From contig USEU01000055.1 of NCBI GenBank assembly GCA_900553805.1, positions 1 through 14,013 on the forward strand: a DNA stretch of 14,013 nucleotides, written 5' to 3'. Shown here in pieces: positions 1,432 to 8,574 of the stretch; the stretch's first letter is position 1, and the number at the start of each line of letters is the position of its first letter. This DNA comes from an uncultured Eubacteriales bacterium (GTDB lineage Bacteria; Bacillota; Clostridia; Oscillospirales; Oscillospiraceae). Under the pieces are notes generated by a model that saw only the letters and a program-made list of their open reading frames with translations, ran no database searches and was not told where the DNA came from. The translations under genes and the position numbers were made by a program.

Positions 1432-2796
1432 TTATGCCAGACCGGGCAGGAATTTCATCATGGCCAGCAGGCACAGCACCACAAAGCCGACAACGCAGGC
1501 AATCAGGTTGCCGCCGGTGTGGGCGATGAAGGTCTCCTTCATGGAAAGACCGTTGAATTCCTTCACTTCCCAGAACGCGCCGTCGGTGGGCAGGCAGATG
1601 CCCAGACCGCCCAGGCACACGGCCAGACCCACGATGATGGGGTTGGCCCCGGTGGTCTCCAGCAGAGGAGCGACCAGGGAGGCGGTGGTGACCAGCGCCG
1701 TGGCGGAGGAGCCCAGGGCCGCCTTCAGCAGCACGGACAGGATGAAGGCCAGGACGAACAGGGGGATGCTGCTGGCGGAGACGAAGGAACCCAGCACGCC
1801 GCCGATGCCGGAGGCGGAGATGATCGCGCCATAGGAGCCGGAGGCGGCCAGAATGAAGAACACGTCGCCCACGTCGTTCAGGCTGGAGGCGAAGATCTTG
1901 CCGGGGGTCTTGTCGATGTACTTGCGCAGCACGATCCAGGCCACGATCACGGACAGCAGCAGCGCGCCCACGCCGTTGGAGGCGGACAGGAAGGTGCAGA
2001 TGTTCAGCACGAAGCCGGCCTGGGTCACGTAGGGCAGCAGGGTGGCAAACAGGATGAGGATAATGGGCAGCAGGATCAGGATGATGGCGGTGGCGGCGGA
2101 GGGATGCACGGGCTTCTGGGTCTTCATGATCTCCGCAATGGCATCGTCGTCGGTGACGTCAGCGGCCTCTGTGCTGTGGCTGAATTTCTTGGTCAGGTAA
2201 TTGCCGTAGAGGGTGCCGCCGCAGATGCTGGCGGGCAGGCTGACGATGATGGAATACAGGATGAACAGGCCCACATTGGCGTTCAGGGAGCCGGCCACGG
2301 CCAGGGGGCCGGGGGTGGGGATGACAAGGCAGTGGGTGCACATCAGGCCCACCACCAGAGCGGTGGTATAGCCGATGACGTTCTTCTTGGTGTGCTTTGC
2401 CAGGGTGGTGCAGATGGGGTTGAGGATGATGTAGGCAGGTCCCATGAACACGGGGATGGAGACCAGGTAGCCGGTGGCGTTCAGGGCGACGTTGGCCTTC
2501 TTGCTGCCGAATTTGCGCAGCATGGCCAGGGCCAGCTGATCGGTGGCGCCGGACTCGGCCAGGATGCCGCCCAGGATGGAGCCAAGGCCCACCACGATGC
2601 CCAGGGCGGCCATCATGTTGCCGAAGCCGCTGGCCACGGTGGACACCAGCTCCTTGGCGGGCATGCCCAGCAGGATGCCGGTGAACAGGGCGGTGATCAG
2701 CATCATGACGCCGGAATCCATTTTCAGCTTGATGATGCCGTACAGAAGGACGAACAGACTGACGAAGAAGATGGCGATGATCATGGTATTGCTCAT
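1432..2796 (-). CDS. GntP-family gluconate/organic-acid:H+ symporter
   Basis: This is a 454-residue integral membrane permease with about 12 to 14 hydrophobic segments covering nearly its whole length. GntP family features are visible: an N-terminal pair of helices, the conserved GFGNMMAALGIVVGLGSILG stretch at about residues 57-76 followed by AESGATDQLA, the HCLVIPTPGPLA segment near the middle, and a C-terminal region containing LGICLPTDGAFWEVKEF. Family members import gluconate, D-serine, fructuronate or related hydroxy-acids with protons. The next gene in the same direction is a glycerate kinase, so glycerate or a compound converted to it is the most economical substrate, but sequence alone does not fix this. 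The gene starts 21 bases after the hydrolase stop, with AAAGGAA as ribosome site, consistent with one transcript. Length is normal and nothing is broken. Confidence 0.9.
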   Translation of the reverse strand: MSNTMIIAIFFVSLFVLLYGIIKLKMDSGVMMLITALFTGILLGMPAKELVSTVASGFGNMMAALGIVVGLGSILGGILAESGATDQLALAMLRKFGSKKANVALNATGYLVSIPVFMGPAYIILNPICTTLAKHTKKNVIGYTTALVVGLMCTHCLVIPTPGPLAVAGSLNANVGLFILYSIIVSLPASICGGTLYGNYLTKKFSHSTEAADVTDDDAIAEIMKTQKPVHPSAATAIILILLPIILILFATLLPYVTQAGFVLNICTFLSASNGVGALLLSVIVAWIVLRKYIDKTPGKIFASSLNDVGDVFFILAASGSYGAIISASGIGGVLGSFVSASSIPLFVLAFILSVLLKAALGSSATALVTTASLVAPLLETTGANPIIVGLAVCLGGLGICLPTDGAFWEVKEFNGLSMKETFIAHTGGNLIACVVGFVVLCLLAMMKFLPGLA

Positions 2797-2817
2797 TTTT
2801 CTACCGTTCCTTTCTTT

Positions 2818-3969
2818 TTATTGCATGGTATCCCGGAGGAACTGGGCCTCCAGGTCGTAGATCCATTCCTGCTCAAAGTCGTGGATGTTGTGGTGCGCGC
2901 CCTCCACGGTCTGGAAGCGGACCTTGTCCATCCCCGCCTCGTGCATGATCTTGGCGGCGAAGTGCATGGTCTGGACGATGGACACCACCTGGTCCTTGGT
3001 CCCGCTGAGGAACAGGAAGGGCGGGCAGTGCCGGTCCACGTAGCTTTCGGGGTTGGCGGCCTGGTCCATCCACCGGCGCTGGCCGGAAAGACCGCCCAGC
3101 AGCACGCTTTCCATGGAGCTGGCGTCGCCGTATTCCGCGATGATGGGGGCGTTGCCCCGGACCATTTCCTCCACCTTGAAGTATTCCGCCATCATGCCGA
3201 TGTCCGCCGGGCAGTACAGGGCGATCACCGCCTGCACCCGGTCGGAAACGTCCTGATTGGGCCAGCGGCTGTCCACCAGCTGGCCGGAGGCGGCGGAGGC
3301 GGCGGCCAGGGCCGCGTAGTGCGCGCCCGCGCTTTCACCCAGCAGGGCGATCCGGCTGCCGTCCAGATGGTAGCTGGCCGCGTGCTTGCGGATGTAGCGG
3401 ACGGCGGCCTTGACCTCCTGCACCTGCACGGGGAAGGGGGCCTGGAAGCTCATGGAATAGTTGATGCTGACCACGGCGAAGCCCCGCTTCAACAGATTCA
3501 GGGCGGGCTCCAGCTTGTGGGAGCTTTTCCGGCCGAAGTACCAGCCGCCGCCGAAGATATCCACGATCACCGGGAAGGGGCCGTCCCCCTCGTTGGGAAG
3601 GTAGATGTCCAGCAGCCGGGTGTCCTCCTTGGCGGGGTAGGGCGTGGCGGAGGTGTCCTTCACGTCTCCCTGGGACAGGGGAGCCTCCCCCTGGGGCTGG
3701 GATTCGATTTGGGCGATCTGCTCGGCCAGGCGCATTCCCGCCGTGGGACCCTGGTCCTTCTTCTCCTCCCGGTCGTCGGCAAAGACCATGCCGGGATAGT
3801 TGGAGGGGCCGTCGTCCTGATCCGCCGCCGTCTTCCACTGGCCGTCCGGCGTGTAGAAGGTGGGCAGCATCCAGTCGCCCTGGGGCGCATAGCGGATGTC
3901 CAGATATTTTCTGCGGACAAAGGCCGTATCCGCCGGAAGGTGCTGGCGCTTTTGATCGATGAATTTCAA
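2818..3969 (-). CDS. Alpha/beta hydrolase, carboxylesterase type (BD-FAE/Abhydrolase_3-like)
   Basis: This 383-residue protein has no signal peptide, so it should act in the cytoplasm on an imported ester. The serine hydrolase elements are in order: nucleophile motif GESAG with Ser213, acid GTKDQ with Asp326, and GAHHN with His359 or His360. The oxyanion-hole segment is FGGGW (139-143), where relatives usually have HGGGW. Residues 1 to about 115 form an extended, charged N-terminal part that I do not recognise; the hydrolase core starts near DIYLPNEGDGPFPV. The start is a TTG placed 9 bases after AAAGGAG; I prefer it because the only upstream ATG near this site is in another frame. It is the first gene of the operon with the permease and glycerate kinase, under a promoter at 4092-4065. 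Substrate is unknown; a short acyl or sugar-acid ester fits the context. Confidence 0.85.
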   Translation of the reverse strand: MKFIDQKRQHLPADTAFVRRKYLDIRYAPQGDWMLPTFYTPDGQWKTAADQDDGPSNYPGMVFADDREEKKDQGPTAGMRLAEQIAQIESQPQGEAPLSQGDVKDTSATPYPAKEDTRLLDIYLPNEGDGPFPVIVDIFGGGWYFGRKSSHKLEPALNLLKRGFAVVSINYSMSFQAPFPVQVQEVKAAVRYIRKHAASYHLDGSRIALLGESAGAHYAALAAASAASGQLVDSRWPNQDVSDRVQAVIALYCPADIGMMAEYFKVEEMVRGNAPIIAEYGDASSMESVLLGGLSGQRRWMDQAANPESYVDRHCPPFLFLSGTKDQVVSIVQTMHFAAKIMHEAGMDKVRFQTVEGAHHNIHDFEQEWIYDLEAQFLRDTMQ

Positions 3970-4326: not shown

Positions 4327-5097
4327 ATGGAAGAGAGTCATGCCCATCAGATCAAGCGCAGAAGCGTCAGCAATCAGATATTTGATATTTTGAAGGAGCG
4401 GATCATTGACCGTCAGTGGCTCCCCGGGGACAAGATCCCCTCCGAGACGGAGATCGCGGCCAGCTTTGGGGTCAGCCGCCTGTCGGCCCGGACGGCGATC
4501 CAGCGGCTCTCCGCCCTGGGGCTGGTGGAGGTCCGGGTGGGCGACGGGACCTACATCAAGGAGTCGCCCCTGGACGATCTGCTGGTGGAAGGCTCCGAGC
4601 TGCTGATGTCCGTCCGGGAGGAGGACGACATGGGCGATTTCCGCAGCCTGTTTGAGCAGGCCTATATGCTCCTTGCCTGCGCCCGCCGCACCCAGGAGGA
4701 CATCGACAGGGTATCCGCCATCATGGACAGGATGTGGGACTGCGCCCGGAAGGGGCAGCTGGAGGAATACCTGGAGGCGGACAACGAGCTGCACAGGACT
4801 CTGTGCCAGGTGGCCGGGAACCAGTATTTCTCCATGGTGTACAAGCTGATGGAGAAGACCTTCATCGCCCAGTACCGCATCAACACCGAGTATTTTTCCC
4901 ATCTGCCGGAGCACTCCCGGAACGTGGGGGACGATAACTACTATCTCAAGCTTCTGTGCCAGGGCCACAGGAGCTACCTGGAGGCGCTGGTGAAGGGGGA
5001 TCCCTCCATTTCCAACAGCTATATGTCGGGCTATCTGCAGATCTACTGGGCCAACCGCCACCCGGAGGAGCCGCCCAAGGAAAAGGCCTGGGGCTGA
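4327..5097 (+). CDS. GntR/FadR-family transcriptional regulator with FCD domain
   Basis: This 256-residue DNA-binding regulator has a GntR-type winged helix-turn-helix at about residues 12-78: SVSNQIFDILKERI, then PGDKIPSE, then the recognition region with FGVSRLSARTAIQRL and the wing VRVGDGTYIKE. From about residue 100 a helical FCD ligand-binding domain follows, including EADNELHRTLCQVAGN with the Asp-x3-His pair and a later GHRSYLEAL histidine. The last histidine usual in metal-binding FCD domains appears as Tyr in MSGYL, so the metal site may be incomplete. Members usually repress carbon-source operons until a small organic acid binds. It is transcribed divergently from the hydrolase-permease-kinase genes, so it most likely controls them. 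The ATG at 4327 gives the normal N-terminus, although its ribosome site is weak. A terminator follows directly. Confidence 0.9.
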   Translation: MEESHAHQIKRRSVSNQIFDILKERIIDRQWLPGDKIPSETEIAASFGVSRLSARTAIQRLSALGLVEVRVGDGTYIKESPLDDLLVEGSELLMSVREEDDMGDFRSLFEQAYMLLACARRTQEDIDRVSAIMDRMWDCARKGQLEEYLEADNELHRTLCQVAGNQYFSMVYKLMEKTFIAQYRINTEYFSHLPEHSRNVGDDNYYLKLLCQGHRSYLEALVKGDPSISNSYMSGYLQIYWANRHPEEPPKEKAWG

Positions 5098-5157: not shown

Positions 5158-5160
5158 CAA

Positions 5161-5185
5161 TTTACCTATTGACATAGTAGGTAAA
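5161..5185. promoter_or_regulatory. Palindromic operator overlapping the importer promoter
   Basis: TTTACCTA (5161-5168) and TAGGTAAA (5178-5185) form a perfect 8-base inverted repeat with a 9-base centre that contains most of the -35 box. A further AATAGGT follows at 5184-5190. The position implies repression. The CCTA-N-TAGG character recalls sites of Rrf2-family regulators such as CymR or IscR, which control sulfur and cysteine genes; that assignment is inference. Confidence 0.55.
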
Positions 5186-5197
5186 TAGGTGTAATAT
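5169..5197 (+). promoter_or_regulatory. Strong predicted promoter of the amino acid importer operon
   Basis: Consensus TTGACA (5169-5174) and TAATAT (5192-5197) are separated by exactly 17 bases. Transcription should start near 5204, giving a leader of about 295 bases before the binding-protein gene. Confidence 0.75.
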
Positions 5198-5247
5198 GCG
5201 CACAACGAATTCAGACGCTCGATCTGGCAAGGAAGGAGAGGAATGCA

Positions 5248-5442
5248 ATGAAGGCAATGGGCATGAATACTGTGATGTGTTGTTGCCGGATGCGGTTCTC
5301 CCGGCTTGGTGTCGGCGGGCAGGTGCATTCGTCTGCCTTGTGCTGCGCCGATGTATCGTGCTTCGCCGTAAGGGTGGAGTATAAAGAGCCATTTGCCGGG
5401 AGCTTTCAGGAAAGCCCCCGGTTTTTTGACGTCGACGTCTGA
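5248..5442 (+). CDS. Cysteine-rich leader peptide (attenuator uORF)
   Basis: A 64-codon ORF starts at an ATG placed 6 bases after a strong GGAAGGAGAGG ribosome site, within the importer leader. Its N-terminus is rich in sulfur residues: five Met in the first 15 residues, and Cys at 11, 12 and 13 encoded by TGT TGT TGC (5278-5286). A second cluster has Cys at 32, 33 and 38 (codons 5341-5346 and 5359-5361). The later codons run through the terminator hairpin, so the C-terminus is probably not under protein-level selection. The peptide itself likely has no enzymatic role; its translation would report cysteinyl-tRNA supply. I do not recognise a named family. The alternative is a chance ORF, but the strong ribosome site, triple Cys codon and matched RNA structures argue against that. 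Confidence 0.7.
   Translation: MKAMGMNTVMCCCRMRFSRLGVGGQVHSSALCCADVSCFAVRVEYKEPFAGSFQESPRFFDVDV
5298..5402 (+). promoter_or_regulatory. Predicted antiterminator pairing in the importer leader
   Basis: CTCCCGGC at 5298-5305 is perfectly complementary to GCCGGGAG at 5395-5402, which includes most of the proximal 5' arm of the terminator. Forming this 8-bp GC-rich helix would prevent the terminator. The first segment begins about 12 bases after the last of the three consecutive Cys codons, so a ribosome stalled there would leave it free. A competing local hairpin, GCCGG (5285-5289) with CCGGC (5301-5305), could sequester it otherwise. Confidence 0.6.
5396..5427 (+). terminator. Leader terminator (attenuator) upstream of the importer genes
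   Basis: A 12-position stem, CCGGGAGCTTTC (5396-5407) with GAAAGCCCCCGG (5410-5421), has one A-C mismatch and is followed at once by six Ts (5422-5427). This is a textbook intrinsic terminator, placed 71 bases before the first structural gene and after its promoter, so it must be conditional. A 12-base palindrome, GACGTCGACGTC (5428-5439), follows it. Confidence 0.85.
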
Positions 5443-5498
5443 GTTCGGGGGAACCATTTTGACATTACGCTGAATAATATGGAAAGAGGTAATTGATA

Positions 5499-6344
5499 AT
5501 GAAAAAGCTTTTGAAAAGAGCGGGCGCTGCCCTTCTTGTACTGATGATGATCGCCGCGACCCTCACCGGCTGCGGCCGGGAGAGCGATAAAAAGGACGGC
5601 AGGACCGTCTATCGCACGGTGGATGAGATCAAGGCCAGCGGGACCATCAACATCGGCGTCTTTTCCGACAAGAGCCCCTTTGGCTACGTGGATGAAAACG
5701 GCCAGTACCAGGGCTACGACGTGTACTTCGCAAACCGCATCGGCCAGGACCTGGGCGTAAAGATCAACTACGTCTCCACCGAGGCGGCCAACCGCATCGA
5801 GTATCTCCAGACCGGCAAGGTGGATATCATCCTGGCAAACTTCACCGTGACGCCGGAGCGGGCCCAGGAGGTGGACTTCGCCTCCCCCTATATGAACGTG
5901 GCACTGGGCGTGGTATCCCCGGACAGCGCGGTGATCACCAGCCTGGAGGACATCGGGCCGGAGGATCAGGTGATCGTCATCTCCGGCACCACGGCAGAGA
6001 CCTATCTGGAGAAGAACTACCCGAATATCAGGCTCCAGAAATACGACGCCTACGCCGAGGCCAAGACCGCCTTTGAAAACGGCAACGGCGTGGCCTGGGC
6101 CAACGACAACACGGAGGTCATCGCTTTCGCCATCGAGAACCCCGGCTATACCGTGGGCATCCCCTCCCTGGGCAGCGCGGATACCATCGCCCCGGCGGTG
6201 ACCAAGGGCAACGAAAGTCTGCTGAACTGGCTGGGTGACGAGATCGCCGCCCTGGGCAAGGAGCGCTTCTTCCACGCCGACTACGAGGCCACCCTGCTGG
6301 ACACCTACGGCAGCGACTATGAGGACACCCTGGTGGTGGAGTGA
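5499..6344 (+). CDS. Amino acid ABC transporter substrate-binding lipoprotein (family 3)
   Basis: This 281-residue extracytoplasmic protein captures the substrate and hands it to the membrane permeases. It has a lipoprotein signal: KKLLKR, a hydrophobic stretch, then LTGC with Cys25 as the lipidated residue. The mature part is a SBP_bac_3 domain, starting with INIGVFSDKSPFGYVDENGQ and continuing with GYDVYFANRIG, then TGKVDIILANFTVTPERAQEVDFASPY, a typical ligand-site block, and the second lobe with VISGTTAETYLEKNYP. Relatives bind polar amino acids, including Asp/Glu (PEB1 type) and cysteine or cystine (CjaA type). The Cys-codon attenuator upstream favours a sulfur amino acid, an inference. 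I start at ATG 5499, 9 bases after GGAAAGAGG; a TTG six bases earlier is too close to that site. Hairpins right after the stop may raise its level above the permeases. Confidence 0.92.
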   Translation: MKKLLKRAGAALLVLMMIAATLTGCGRESDKKDGRTVYRTVDEIKASGTINIGVFSDKSPFGYVDENGQYQGYDVYFANRIGQDLGVKINYVSTEAANRIEYLQTGKVDIILANFTVTPERAQEVDFASPYMNVALGVVSPDSAVITSLEDIGPEDQVIVISGTTAETYLEKNYPNIRLQKYDAYAEAKTAFENGNGVAWANDNTEVIAFAIENPGYTVGIPSLGSADTIAPAVTKGNESLLNWLGDEIAALGKERFFHADYEATLLDTYGSDYEDTLVVE

Positions 6345-6480: not shown

Positions 6481-7134
6481 TTGGATTGGGATGTGATGAT
6501 AAGCTATCTGCCCCGCTTTTGGCAGGCGCTGGGGCTGACCCTGCGGGTGGGCTGGCAGGGCGTGGCCATTGCCTTTGCCCTGGGCTTGGCGGGGGCGGCG
6601 GCGCTGCACTTCCGGGTGCTGGGGCGGCTGGTGAACGCCTATGTGGAGCTGTTCCGCAATACGCCGCTGCTGGTTCAGCTGTTCTTCATTTATTTCGCCC
6701 TGCCCAAGCTGGGGCTGCGGGTCTCGCCGGAGACCTGCGGCACCTGGGGCCTGGGCCTGCTGGGGGGCGCGTATATGACGGAGACCTTCCGCAGCGGCCT
6801 GGAATCCATCCCGCCCATCCAGGCCGAAAGCGCCCAGAGCCTGGGCATGACCCGGGCACAGACCTTCCGCCATGTGATCCTGCCCCAGGCCCTGGCCACC
6901 AGCGTCCCGGGCCTGGTGGCCAACGTGGTGTTCCTGCTGAAGGAGACCAGTGTATTTTCCACCGTCAGCCTGATGGACCTGATGTTCACCGCCAAGGATC
7001 TGATCGGCATGTACGCCAAGACCCTGGAATGCCTGACGCTGCTGGCGGGGTTTTACCTGTTGATGCTGCTGCCCGTCTCCCTGGCGGGGGACTGGCTGGA
7101 AAGGAGGCTGCGCCGTGGCGCGTTTGGGAATTGA
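6481..7134 (+). CDS. Amino acid ABC transporter permease, first subunit (HisM/GlnP type)
   Basis: This 217-residue inner-membrane subunit forms half of the translocation channel. It has the polar amino acid permease layout: an N-terminal helix (YLPRFWQALGLTLRV), then the VELFRNTPLLVQLFFIYF segment (about 55-72) diagnostic of this family. The EAA loop (AESAQSLGMTRAQTFRHVILPQAL, about 115-138) with conserved Gly122 and Leu134-Pro135 docks the ATPase, and two further hydrophobic segments follow. The start is uncertain. A TTG at 6481 has AAGG 9 bases upstream and gives the usual length; an ATG at 6496 would give 212 residues but has a poor ribosome site. The 3' end overlaps the second permease by 20 bases, showing translational coupling. 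Confidence 0.88.
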   Translation: MDWDVMISYLPRFWQALGLTLRVGWQGVAIAFALGLAGAAALHFRVLGRLVNAYVELFRNTPLLVQLFFIYFALPKLGLRVSPETCGTWGLGLLGGAYMTETFRSGLESIPPIQAESAQSLGMTRAQTFRHVILPQALATSVPGLVANVVFLLKETSVFSTVSLMDLMFTAKDLIGMYAKTLECLTLLAGFYLLMLLPVSLAGDWLERRLRRGAFGN

Positions 7135-7789
7135 CGTGCTCTTCAAGGGCACGAATTTTCTGCGTCTGCTGGGCGGACTGTGGGTGGCCCTGCGCATCAG
7201 CCTGATCTCCGTGGGGATCAGCCTGGTGGCGGGACTGCTGGCGGGGGTGCTGATGACCTCCAAAAGCAGGGTGCTGCGGGCGTTCTTCCGGGCCTGGCTG
7301 GAGATCGTCCGCATCCTGCCCCAGATGGTGCTGCTCTTCGCGGTGTATTTCGGCACCACCCGGATCTTCGGCTGGAACCTGGACGCGGAGCTGTCGGCGA
7401 TCTTCGTGTTCAGCTTCTGGGGCGCCGCGGAGATGGGCGACCTGGTACGCGGGGCGGTGGTGAGCATCCCCCAGCTCCAGCGGGAAAGCGCCCTGGCCCT
7501 GGGGCTGACCAGGGCCCAGACGGACCTGTACGTGATCCTGCCCCAGACCGTCCGGCGGCTGCTGCCCCTGTCCATCAATCTCATTACCCGGATGATCAAA
7601 ACCACCAGTCTGGTGATGATGATCGGCGTGGTGGAGGTGCTGAAGGTGGCCCAGCAGATCATCGAGGCCAACCGCCGCAGCTCCCCCAACGCGGCCTTCG
7701 GGGTATTCGCCGTGGTATTTCTGCTGTATTTTCTCATCTGCTGGCCCATCAGCCGGCTGGCGGTCTATCTGGAAAAGAGGTGGTCGTAA
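7115..7789 (+). CDS. Amino acid ABC transporter permease, second subunit
   Basis: This 224-residue membrane protein is the second channel half. The order of motifs parallels the first subunit: LLGGLWVALRISLISV, then WLEIVRILPQMVLLFAVYFG (61-80), then an EAA loop at about residues 120-146 (LQRESALALGLTRAQTDLYVILPQ), and a final helix FAVVFLLYFLICW. The RNTP sequence of the first subunit appears as RILP here. It starts at a GTG inside the end of the first permease gene, 7 bases after AAGGAGG, and its TAA stop shares a base with the ATG of the ATPase. The two unequal permeases would form a heterodimer. Confidence 0.88.
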   Translation: MARLGIDVLFKGTNFLRLLGGLWVALRISLISVGISLVAGLLAGVLMTSKSRVLRAFFRAWLEIVRILPQMVLLFAVYFGTTRIFGWNLDAELSAIFVFSFWGAAEMGDLVRGAVVSIPQLQRESALALGLTRAQTDLYVILPQTVRRLLPLSINLITRMIKTTSLVMMIGVVEVLKVAQQIIEANRRSSPNAAFGVFAVVFLLYFLICWPISRLAVYLEKRWS

Positions 7790-8574
7790 TGGAGCAGCCG
7801 CTGCTGCAAGTGAACAATCTGCGCAAGGCCTACGGGGATAACGTGGTCCTGCGGGACATGAGCCTGACCGTGCGCCAGGGGGAGGTGACGGTGATCATCG
7901 GTCCCTCCGGCTGCGGCAAGAGCACCCTGCTGCGCTGCCTGAACGGCCTGGAGGACATCCAGGGCGGAGAAATTCTGCTGGAGGGCCAGCCGCTGCGGCG
8001 GGACGCAAAGGACATCTGCGCCCTGCGGCAGAAGATCGGCATGGTGTTCCAGAGCTATGACCTGTTCCCCCACCTGACCGTGCTGGAAAACATCCTGCTG
8101 GCCCCCATGAAGGTGCAGAAGCGCAAGCGGGCCGAGGCGGAGCGGGAGGCCCTGGCCCTGCTGGAGCGGGTGGGCCTGGCGGACCGCCGGAACGACTACC
8201 CCCGGCAGCTGTCCGGCGGGCAGAAGCAGCGCATCGCCATCGTCCGGGCGCTGATCCTGCGCCCGAAAATTCTGCTTCTGGATGAGATCACCGCCGCCCT
8301 GGACCCGGAAATGGTCCACGAGGTGCTGGCGGTGGTGCTGGATCTGGCCCGGCAGGGCAGCACCATGCTGATCGTCACCCATGAGATGGCCTTTGCCAAG
8401 GCCGCTGCGAACCGGGTCCTCTTCCTGGAAAACGGCGTCATCGCCGAGGAAAGCCGCGAGCCGGCGGCCTTCTTCACCCACCCCGCCACCCCCCGCGCCC
8501 AGCAGTTCCTGAACTCCCTGGAATACGAGACCCCCAGTTCCTTGCTGCCCCCTCTGGGGGAAGTGCCGCGTTAG
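7789..8574 (+). CDS. Amino acid ABC transporter ATP-binding protein
   Basis: This 261-residue cytoplasmic ATPase powers the importer. All nucleotide-binding elements are present: Walker A GPSGCGKST (38-46), Q-loop in VFQSYDLFPH (Gln88), signature LSGGQ (141-145), Walker B ILLLDE (161-166), D-loop ALDPE and H-loop His198 in VTHEM. Just after Walker B the sequence is DEITAALD where relatives mostly have DEPTSALD, a mild variation. The last 13 residues (249-261, PSSLLPPLGEVPR) run beyond the usual end near FLNSLE and are encoded by a palindromic repeat, with the stop codon inside the repeat's hairpin. The start overlaps the permease stop (TAATG), so the three membrane and ATPase genes are tightly coupled. 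Confidence 0.93.
   Translation: MEQPLLQVNNLRKAYGDNVVLRDMSLTVRQGEVTVIIGPSGCGKSTLLRCLNGLEDIQGGEILLEGQPLRRDAKDICALRQKIGMVFQSYDLFPHLTVLENILLAPMKVQKRKRAEAEREALALLERVGLADRRNDYPRQLSGGQKQRIAIVRALILRPKILLLDEITAALDPEMVHEVLAVVLDLARQGSTMLIVTHEMAFAKAAANRVLFLENGVIAEESREPAAFFTHPATPRAQQFLNSLEYETPSSLLPPLGEVPR

Follow-up and report, generated by a model that had tools for sequence, protein, structure and literature searches.

Organisation of the leader and importer locus

The window, that is, the whole stretch of 14,013 bases analysed here, carries a four-gene amino-acid importer (a binding protein, two permeases and an ATPase) 3′ of a leader. The gene of an FCD-type GntR regulator (4327-5097) lies immediately 5′ of this leader, on the same strand. 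The features of the locus are given below.

5160..5186, no strand assigned: 27-bp palindrome, ATTTACCTA-9 nt-TAGGTAAAT, overlapping the -35 box; putative CymR/Rrf2-like operator
5169..5197, + strand: sigma-70-type promoter, TTGACA (from 5169), 17 nt, TAATAT (ending at 5197), 10 of 12 consensus positions
5206..5217, + strand: 5′ strand of a closing helix, CGAATTCAGACG, 12 pairs with 5436-5447
5233..5241, + strand: Shine-Dalgarno-like site of the leader ORF, AAGGAGAGG, with similar sites in homologues
5248..5442, + strand: leader ORF of 64 codons, ATG at 5248, stop at 5440-5442
5278..5286, + strand: Cys codon run TGT TGT TGC, the proposed sensor (direct reading, alignment)
5287..5294, + strand: segment 1, CGGATGCG, which may pair with 5324-5331
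5298..5305, + strand: segment 2, 5′ strand of the antiterminator, CTCCCGGC; 5301-5305 may alternatively pair with 5311-5315
5341..5346, + strand: second Cys pair, TGC TGC (direct reading)
5395..5402, + strand: segment 3, 3′ strand of the antiterminator and 5′ arm of the terminator, GCCGGGAG
5395..5427, + strand: intrinsic terminator (segments 3:4), stem 5395-5422, six T at 5422-5427
5436..5447, + strand: 3′ strand of the closing helix, CGTCTGAGTTCG, pairing with 5206-5217
5499..6344, + strand: solute-binding protein (SBP_bac_3), related to 2yjp and 1xt8 (family and structure matches)
6481..8574, + strand: remaining importer genes, two permeases (6481-7134 and 7115-7789) and an ATPase (to 8574)

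The nearest solved relatives of the window binding protein are 2yjp (E 4e-72) and 1xt8 (E 1.5e-71), which are annotated as amino-acid transporters and which we take to be cysteine binders of Neisseria and Campylobacter. Its best NCBIfam matches are lysine/arginine/ornithine and cystine binders, far under the cut-offs. We infer cysteine or cystine as the substrate, and go no further because the structural relatives are named as amino-acid transporters only and the NCBIfam matches fall so low. The window protein has 281 amino acids; in many relatives (L002, L005, L008 and others) the binding protein is an ORF of about 550 amino acids, and in the long ORFs inspected, for example L109 and L110, a MetQ-like part follows the cysteine-type part.

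An earlier note on this DNA had proposed that a strong promoter is followed by a cysteine-codon attenuator of the trp/his type controlling the importer. The TTGACA and TAATAT boxes are where it had placed them, with a predicted transcription start near 5204-5206; shuffles of the region yield 0.8 sites this good on average, so that the promoter match, taken alone, is weak. The leader ORF, its good ribosome site and the TGT TGT TGC run were all found as described, as was an intrinsic terminator before the first gene. The latter folds with -16.4 kcal/mol, a value equalled by 4 of 200 dinucleotide shuffles; a simple terminator scan of the window did not list it, because its stem is interrupted. 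The proposed 8-base complementarity is exact, segment 2 being the reverse complement of segment 3. One 8-bp match in a single sequence is weak evidence by itself, and we place this one above chance because the helix covaries in homologues and the window is recovered by a model from which it had been left out.

Conservation of the leader and its RNA helices

A search of a species-genome collection with the binding protein, made blind to the presence of a leader, gave 552 relatives, of which the best 80 were used. Among these 80 loci, 31 have a leader ORF of the type ...CCCRMxxSRA... directly before the importer gene, and in 30 of these 31 importer leaders two or more Cys codons are preserved at the run together with a terminator. 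The exception, L038 (1423-1554), retains one Cys codon and segments 2 and 3, has no terminator and is perhaps decaying. The upstream sequence available for importer loci was 2,000 bases, except for L016 and L029 (under 100), and loci in which no leader was seen may carry one beyond this range. In three loci (L026, L035 and L039) a metY gene lies between the leader and the importer. A TwoAYGGAY RNA was seen upstream of the importer in Pseudobutyrivibrio (L020:955-1116 and L052:810-972), and the Rfam search placed an L21 leader elsewhere in some loci.

A peptide profile (A1, from the window and 28 importer loci) gave matches with E up to 0.001 in 10 of 391 genomes of a class, 31 of 397 of one family and 7 of 295 of an order; at a looser limit of 0.01, 15 of 300 genomes of another family matched, some of them doubtfully. 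With strict filters, the covariance model R1 found the leader in 11 of 274 genomes of the class, one being marginal at 8e-4. Ten genomes chosen for having a leader contained one to three copies each. The leader is thus scattered, not universal. A second covariance model (R2), constructed from 60 leaders with the window left out, recovered window positions 5272-5429 with an E value of 4e-19, as its sole match in both strands of the 14,013 bases.

For comparison of the RNA we used an alignment of 72 rows (A2), made of the window, 30 importer loci and 41 loci from the profile search. Four loci were dropped: L134 and L141, where no leader was seen, L110, which has the same leader as L076, and L038, which lacks the terminator. 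L131 was additionally left out of the antiterminator swap, the partition folds and the swap of stem 1:1′, which hence cover 71 leaders. Counting Cys codons among the five codons ending at the anchor, 71 of the 72 aligned leaders have two or more at the run, in line with the conservation that the earlier note had proposed to look for; the exception is L098 (MCMRRM). A further Cys occurs within the last 12 residues of the peptide in 62 of 72.

The antiterminator covariation sought by the earlier note was likewise found. Ten antiterminator pairs (alignment columns 27-36 and 176-185) are formed in 96.5% of cells over the 72 leaders, as against 15.6-61.8% in slid registers. Both sides have changed in 6 of the 10 pairs, in 22 cells, a level reached by 0 of 500 shuffles; the 72 rows are related, so that these cells are not independent events. 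The variants include GGGCA/TGCCC, AGGCA/TGCCT, GGACA/TGTCC, GAGCA/TGCTC and GGGTA/TATCC, and in the window the helix is one pair shorter, the pair being lost on both strands. Only L099, L136 and L139 have as few as 5 or 6 contiguous pairs. Exchanging strands between leaders was less informative (71 leaders; mean score 27.5 for own strands, 24.9 for swapped strands and 13.9 for mononucleotide shuffles), because most leaders share one sequence. Between the Cys run and the antiterminator helix all 72 rows are free of gaps, which puts the edge of a stalled ribosome at about the start of the helix and agrees with the position near 5297 proposed before.

A hairpin that would hide segment 2, with an outer stem CGAATG/C(A,G)TTCG at the position of the stalled ribosome, is paired in 79% of cells compared with at most 42% in slid registers. 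Its covariation does not exceed that of shuffles (105 of 500), and the swap test for stem 1:1′ gained little (14.59 for own strands, 14.55 for swapped ones).

A second long-range helix, missed in the earlier note, is an addition to its model. In 24 of the 72 leaders, the predicted 5′ end of the transcript can form nine or more contiguous pairs with the segment after the T-run. In the window this closing helix has 12 pairs, and 1 of 2000 dinucleotide shuffles is as good; in L051 the figure is 3 of 2000. Both strands of the window and of L051 differ from the common GAATTTGAGC/GCTCAAATTC, yet 12 positions pair, and strands exchanged with other leaders score lower (at most 19.5 against 28.5 for the window, at most 18 against 29 for L051). 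The closing-helix score was reached by 25 rows and is reached by 3.3% of shuffles; L125 passed it at another place, which we take as chance, and L021 was kept among the 25 aligned rows although it lies below the score. In this alignment 89.5% of cells are paired and 11 cells are changed on both sides, as high a count as in 1 of 500 shuffles. The number of further pair types counts against the helix, since 496 of 500 shuffles had at least as many. The window and L051 are misaligned in these 25 rows, and their pairing rests on the separate shuffle and swap tests.

Downstream genes were surveyed for 97 leader copies by comparing up to three ORFs with eleven reference proteins, six of them named after NCBIfam and the remainder by our own reading. 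A listed sulfur-type gene is among the first downstream ORFs in 93 of the 97 copies, in Lachnospiraceae and Oscillospirales; the set was gathered partly by way of the importer gene, and the shares of the individual genes are not an unbiased census. The first recognised gene resembles the cysteine-type binding protein in 41 copies (at only 26% identity in L155, and as the second ORF in L050) and O-acetylhomoserine sulfhydrylase in 30, five of them only about 34% alike; the sulfhydrylase-like gene of L182 is nearest to cystathionine gamma-lyase models. The others are 9 MetQ-type binding proteins, 7 importer permeases, 2 CysK, 1 MetN-type ATPase, a further sulfhydrylase-like enzyme (L123) and a possible cyclase with no NCBIfam family at the limit (L122). 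In L127 the leader (1516-1668) precedes a (2S)-3-sulfopropanediol dehydratase gene (1758-3071, truncated by the end of the locus), which suggests that sulfonate use may answer to cysteine supply there. No reference match was found among up to three downstream ORFs in L099, L113, L148 and L149. Control of the importer, as first proposed, fits the leaders directly before it; by its gene neighbourhoods, the leader appears to serve a regulon of sulfur genes and not the importer alone.

Proposed mechanism and alternative readings

We consider it likely, on comparative grounds, that the leader is a ribosome-mediated transcription attenuator that senses the supply of charged tRNA-Cys in some gut Clostridia and is shared by many relatives; it would turn on genes for cysteine uptake and sulfur assimilation under cysteine shortage. 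Comparison bears out the Cys run, the terminator and the covarying helix of the trp/his-type reading; it does not bear out a scope confined to the importer, nor a read-through ORF as a general trait. The antiterminator and the terminator are mutually exclusive, segment 3 being shared, and the antiterminator helix starts where the stalled ribosome would end. A ribosome starting at the good Shine-Dalgarno site would soon meet the Cys run, from which segment 2 is separated by a constant spacing. Segment 3 could then pair either with segment 2, as antiterminator, or with segment 4, as terminator. When Cys-tRNA is ample, the ribosome would pass over segment 2, or leave it in a local hairpin, and transcription would stop near 5427. 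Under a shortage of Cys-tRNA, the ribosome would halt over the run, its front edge reaching to about 5297; segment 2 would then capture segment 3, and the importer genes would be transcribed. This order of stall, antiterminator and read-through is proposed because of the geometry.

Partition-function folds of the 71 leaders, in which a 29-nt mask at the Cys run stands for the stalled ribosome, provide equilibrium sketches and not kinetics. For RNA reaching to segment 3, the antiterminator probability exceeded 0.5 in 66 of 71 leaders without a ribosome, in 68 with the Cys-run mask, in 70 with everything upstream masked and in 0 with segment 2 covered; once segment 4 was included, the corresponding numbers were 40, 46, 65 and 0. 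In the case of the window, the probabilities in these four states were 0.13, 0.99, 0.99 and 0 up to segment 3, and 0, 0.41, 0.98 and 0 with segment 4, the terminator reaching 0.86 with segment 2 covered. When the full-length stalled window was folded with a slightly altered transcript and mask, the antiterminator had a probability of 0.16 and the terminator was still favoured. Because 66 of the 71 leaders are predicted to form the antiterminator ahead of segment 4 without any ribosome, the folds separate the states clearly only for some leaders, the window included.

In the subgroup with a closing helix, the 5′ end of the read-through RNA would close with the segment past the terminator. This helix is possible only in read-through RNA, because its 3′ strand lies past the terminator. 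We tentatively suggest that it may mark read-through mRNA and protect its 5′ end from 5′-dependent decay, the terminated leader staying open. If true, a single leader would link transcription attenuation to the stability of the mRNA.

The earlier note had pointed out that the ORF of the window reads through the terminator to 5442. This is true of the window and private to it: 1 of 72 leaders has an ORF crossing segment 3. The other 71 stop before the 3′ strand of the antiterminator, at a median of 33 nt before segment 3 (70 measured; the distance in L011 is not measurable, but its stop has the same offset as in relatives and it is counted among the 71), and the end of the relatives' ORF aligns near window codon TCG 5356-5358. 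A fast ribosome on the long ORF could spoil termination. The window copy might accordingly be decaying and leaky, with no usual stop, ribosomes entering the terminator and the importer roughly constitutive. We hold this to be rather unlikely: its terminator is intact, and so are its antiterminator and closing helix, in which changes on one strand are matched by changes on the other.

Is the signal cysteine alone? Of the 25 further copies found with R1, 15 carry at least two Cys codons at the run, 7 carry a single one and 3 carry none, which tells against strict Cys specificity. Loss of the run in homologues that keep the gene order had been named beforehand as evidence against the attenuator. 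Of all 97 copies, 3 are without Cys at the run and 8 have one only, which counts against it; the Cys-poor copies include no typical importer leader except L038. The three copies without Cys (L001:954-1095 and L037:1065-1204, both on the minus strand, and L150:1492-1631) keep the RNA core. Those of L001 and L037 are divergent metY leaders with RFGRM and RSGRM at the run and Cys codons later, and that of L150 has MMMRM and precedes a MetQ-type gene. The Cys run is thus typical, not absolute, and Met codons can replace Cys. A run sensing Cys and Met jointly, as a general sulfur-amino-acid sensor, would account for the Met codons among or instead of Cys before Met-related genes (L098, MCMRRM; L180 and L184, MCMRM; L150, MMMRM). 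We regard it as unlikely, since a Met preceding the run frequently stands alone and, among the best 80 of 552 relatives, 30 of the 31 importer leaders have two or more Cys.

The promoter palindrome, also missed in the earlier note, is a further addition to the attenuator model. Its core CCTATTGACnnAnTAGG matches 53 of the 72 leaders with no more than one mismatch, and shuffled windows never gave better than three mismatches; 13 of the 72 have 5 or more mismatches. The core is also present before 22 of 49 importer genes without a directly upstream leader, among the best 80 of 552 relatives (L020, L032, L046 and 19 more loci). With up to one mismatch it was found in 6 of 7 genomes searched, in one to five copies each; the reversed control pattern gave up to three matches in the same search. 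The palindrome is a candidate operator at which a CymR/Rrf2-type repressor may act, probably as an extra, protein-based layer over the promoter. Its conservation, and its presence before importer genes with no leader directly upstream, would suit a reading in which cysteine control lies in this operator only, the terminator being a fixed brake and the ORF having no regulatory role. That reading seems improbable to us: it leaves the covarying antiterminator, the fixed Cys-to-helix spacing and the Cys run unexplained, and at least 11 of the 72 leaders have no good palindrome match.

Arrest by the nascent peptide in response to a small molecule, as in TnaC or Erm leaders and not through codon supply, is very improbable: RMxxSRA after the Cys run is conserved, but the residues before the run, which would sit in the tunnel, are poorly conserved, and those after it change along with the RNA helix (helix-keeping changes such as CGG to CAG and GCA to ACA alter the peptide).

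Relation to known leaders

The leader peptide matched no NCBIfam family and no credible Pfam family; one search of known protein families yielded three poor matches of the kind expected by chance (E 0.02 or worse), which we rejected. No Rfam family was found in the window or in 13 leader loci, the latter showing nothing beyond faint microRNA-type matches under the gathering scores. In Firmicutes, T-box and S-box leaders regulate genes of this sort, likewise through termination; unlike those, the window leader has no Rfam match, and a T-box was rejected for the window and the 13 loci alike. To our knowledge, few transcription attenuators in Firmicutes sense codons, this task usually falling to T-boxes. 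Transcription in Firmicutes is thought to outrun translation; if our reading is true, ribosome-timed termination works in gut Clostridia. The leader precedes genes for uptake, sulfhydrylation, cysteine synthesis and, in one case, sulfonate degradation, and as an attenuator it would offer a handle on cysteine and sulfide management by these organisms, with 97 natural variants and a covariance model at hand. The closing helix poses a new question, that of the fate of the mRNA after antitermination.

In the open-licence literature, which leaves most subscription papers outside, we found no cysteine leader of this kind in Clostridia, and the attenuator is likely to be new there. In a Clostridium, CymR is described as a cysteine repressor (PMC3828012, in part). 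Our case resembles that regulon in its cysteine uptake and synthesis genes and in having a palindrome, a candidate operator, at the promoter; CymR is a protein repressor, whereas the attenuator would be a separate RNA layer.

Leaders with Cys codons have been predicted in Actinobacteria (PMC1262725), and polycysteine leader ORFs are known from mycobacteria (Canestrari 2020, as cited in PMC9094748 and PMC13236596). As far as the excerpts of these sources go, they too are Cys-codon leader ORFs before sulfur genes. The mycobacterial leaders, as excerpted from PMC1262725, have no terminator hairpin and carry their Cys codons near the stop, whereas the present leaders have an explicit terminator and antiterminator and an early run; a passage of PMC13236596 calls the mycobacterial control translational. 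A leaderless polycysteine leader of the mycobacterial type (PMC1262725, in part, and the title of Canestrari 2020) was rejected, a Shine-Dalgarno site and a terminator being present here.

Among Firmicutes, the consulted sections of the literature describe His leaders in bacilli and at hisZ of Clostridium difficile (PMC2965389, PMC4833913) and a Leu leader in Staphylococcus aureus (PMC5794164). The present leaders resemble the trp-, his- and leu-type attenuators of Proteobacteria and Actinobacteria, which, in the portions of the sources used, share a short ORF containing codons of the amino acid under control and mutually exclusive antiterminator and terminator. Compared with these partial descriptions, the present leaders use Cys codons, place the stop about 80 nt beyond segment 2 instead of over it, and add a CymR-like operator and, in a subgroup, the closing helix.
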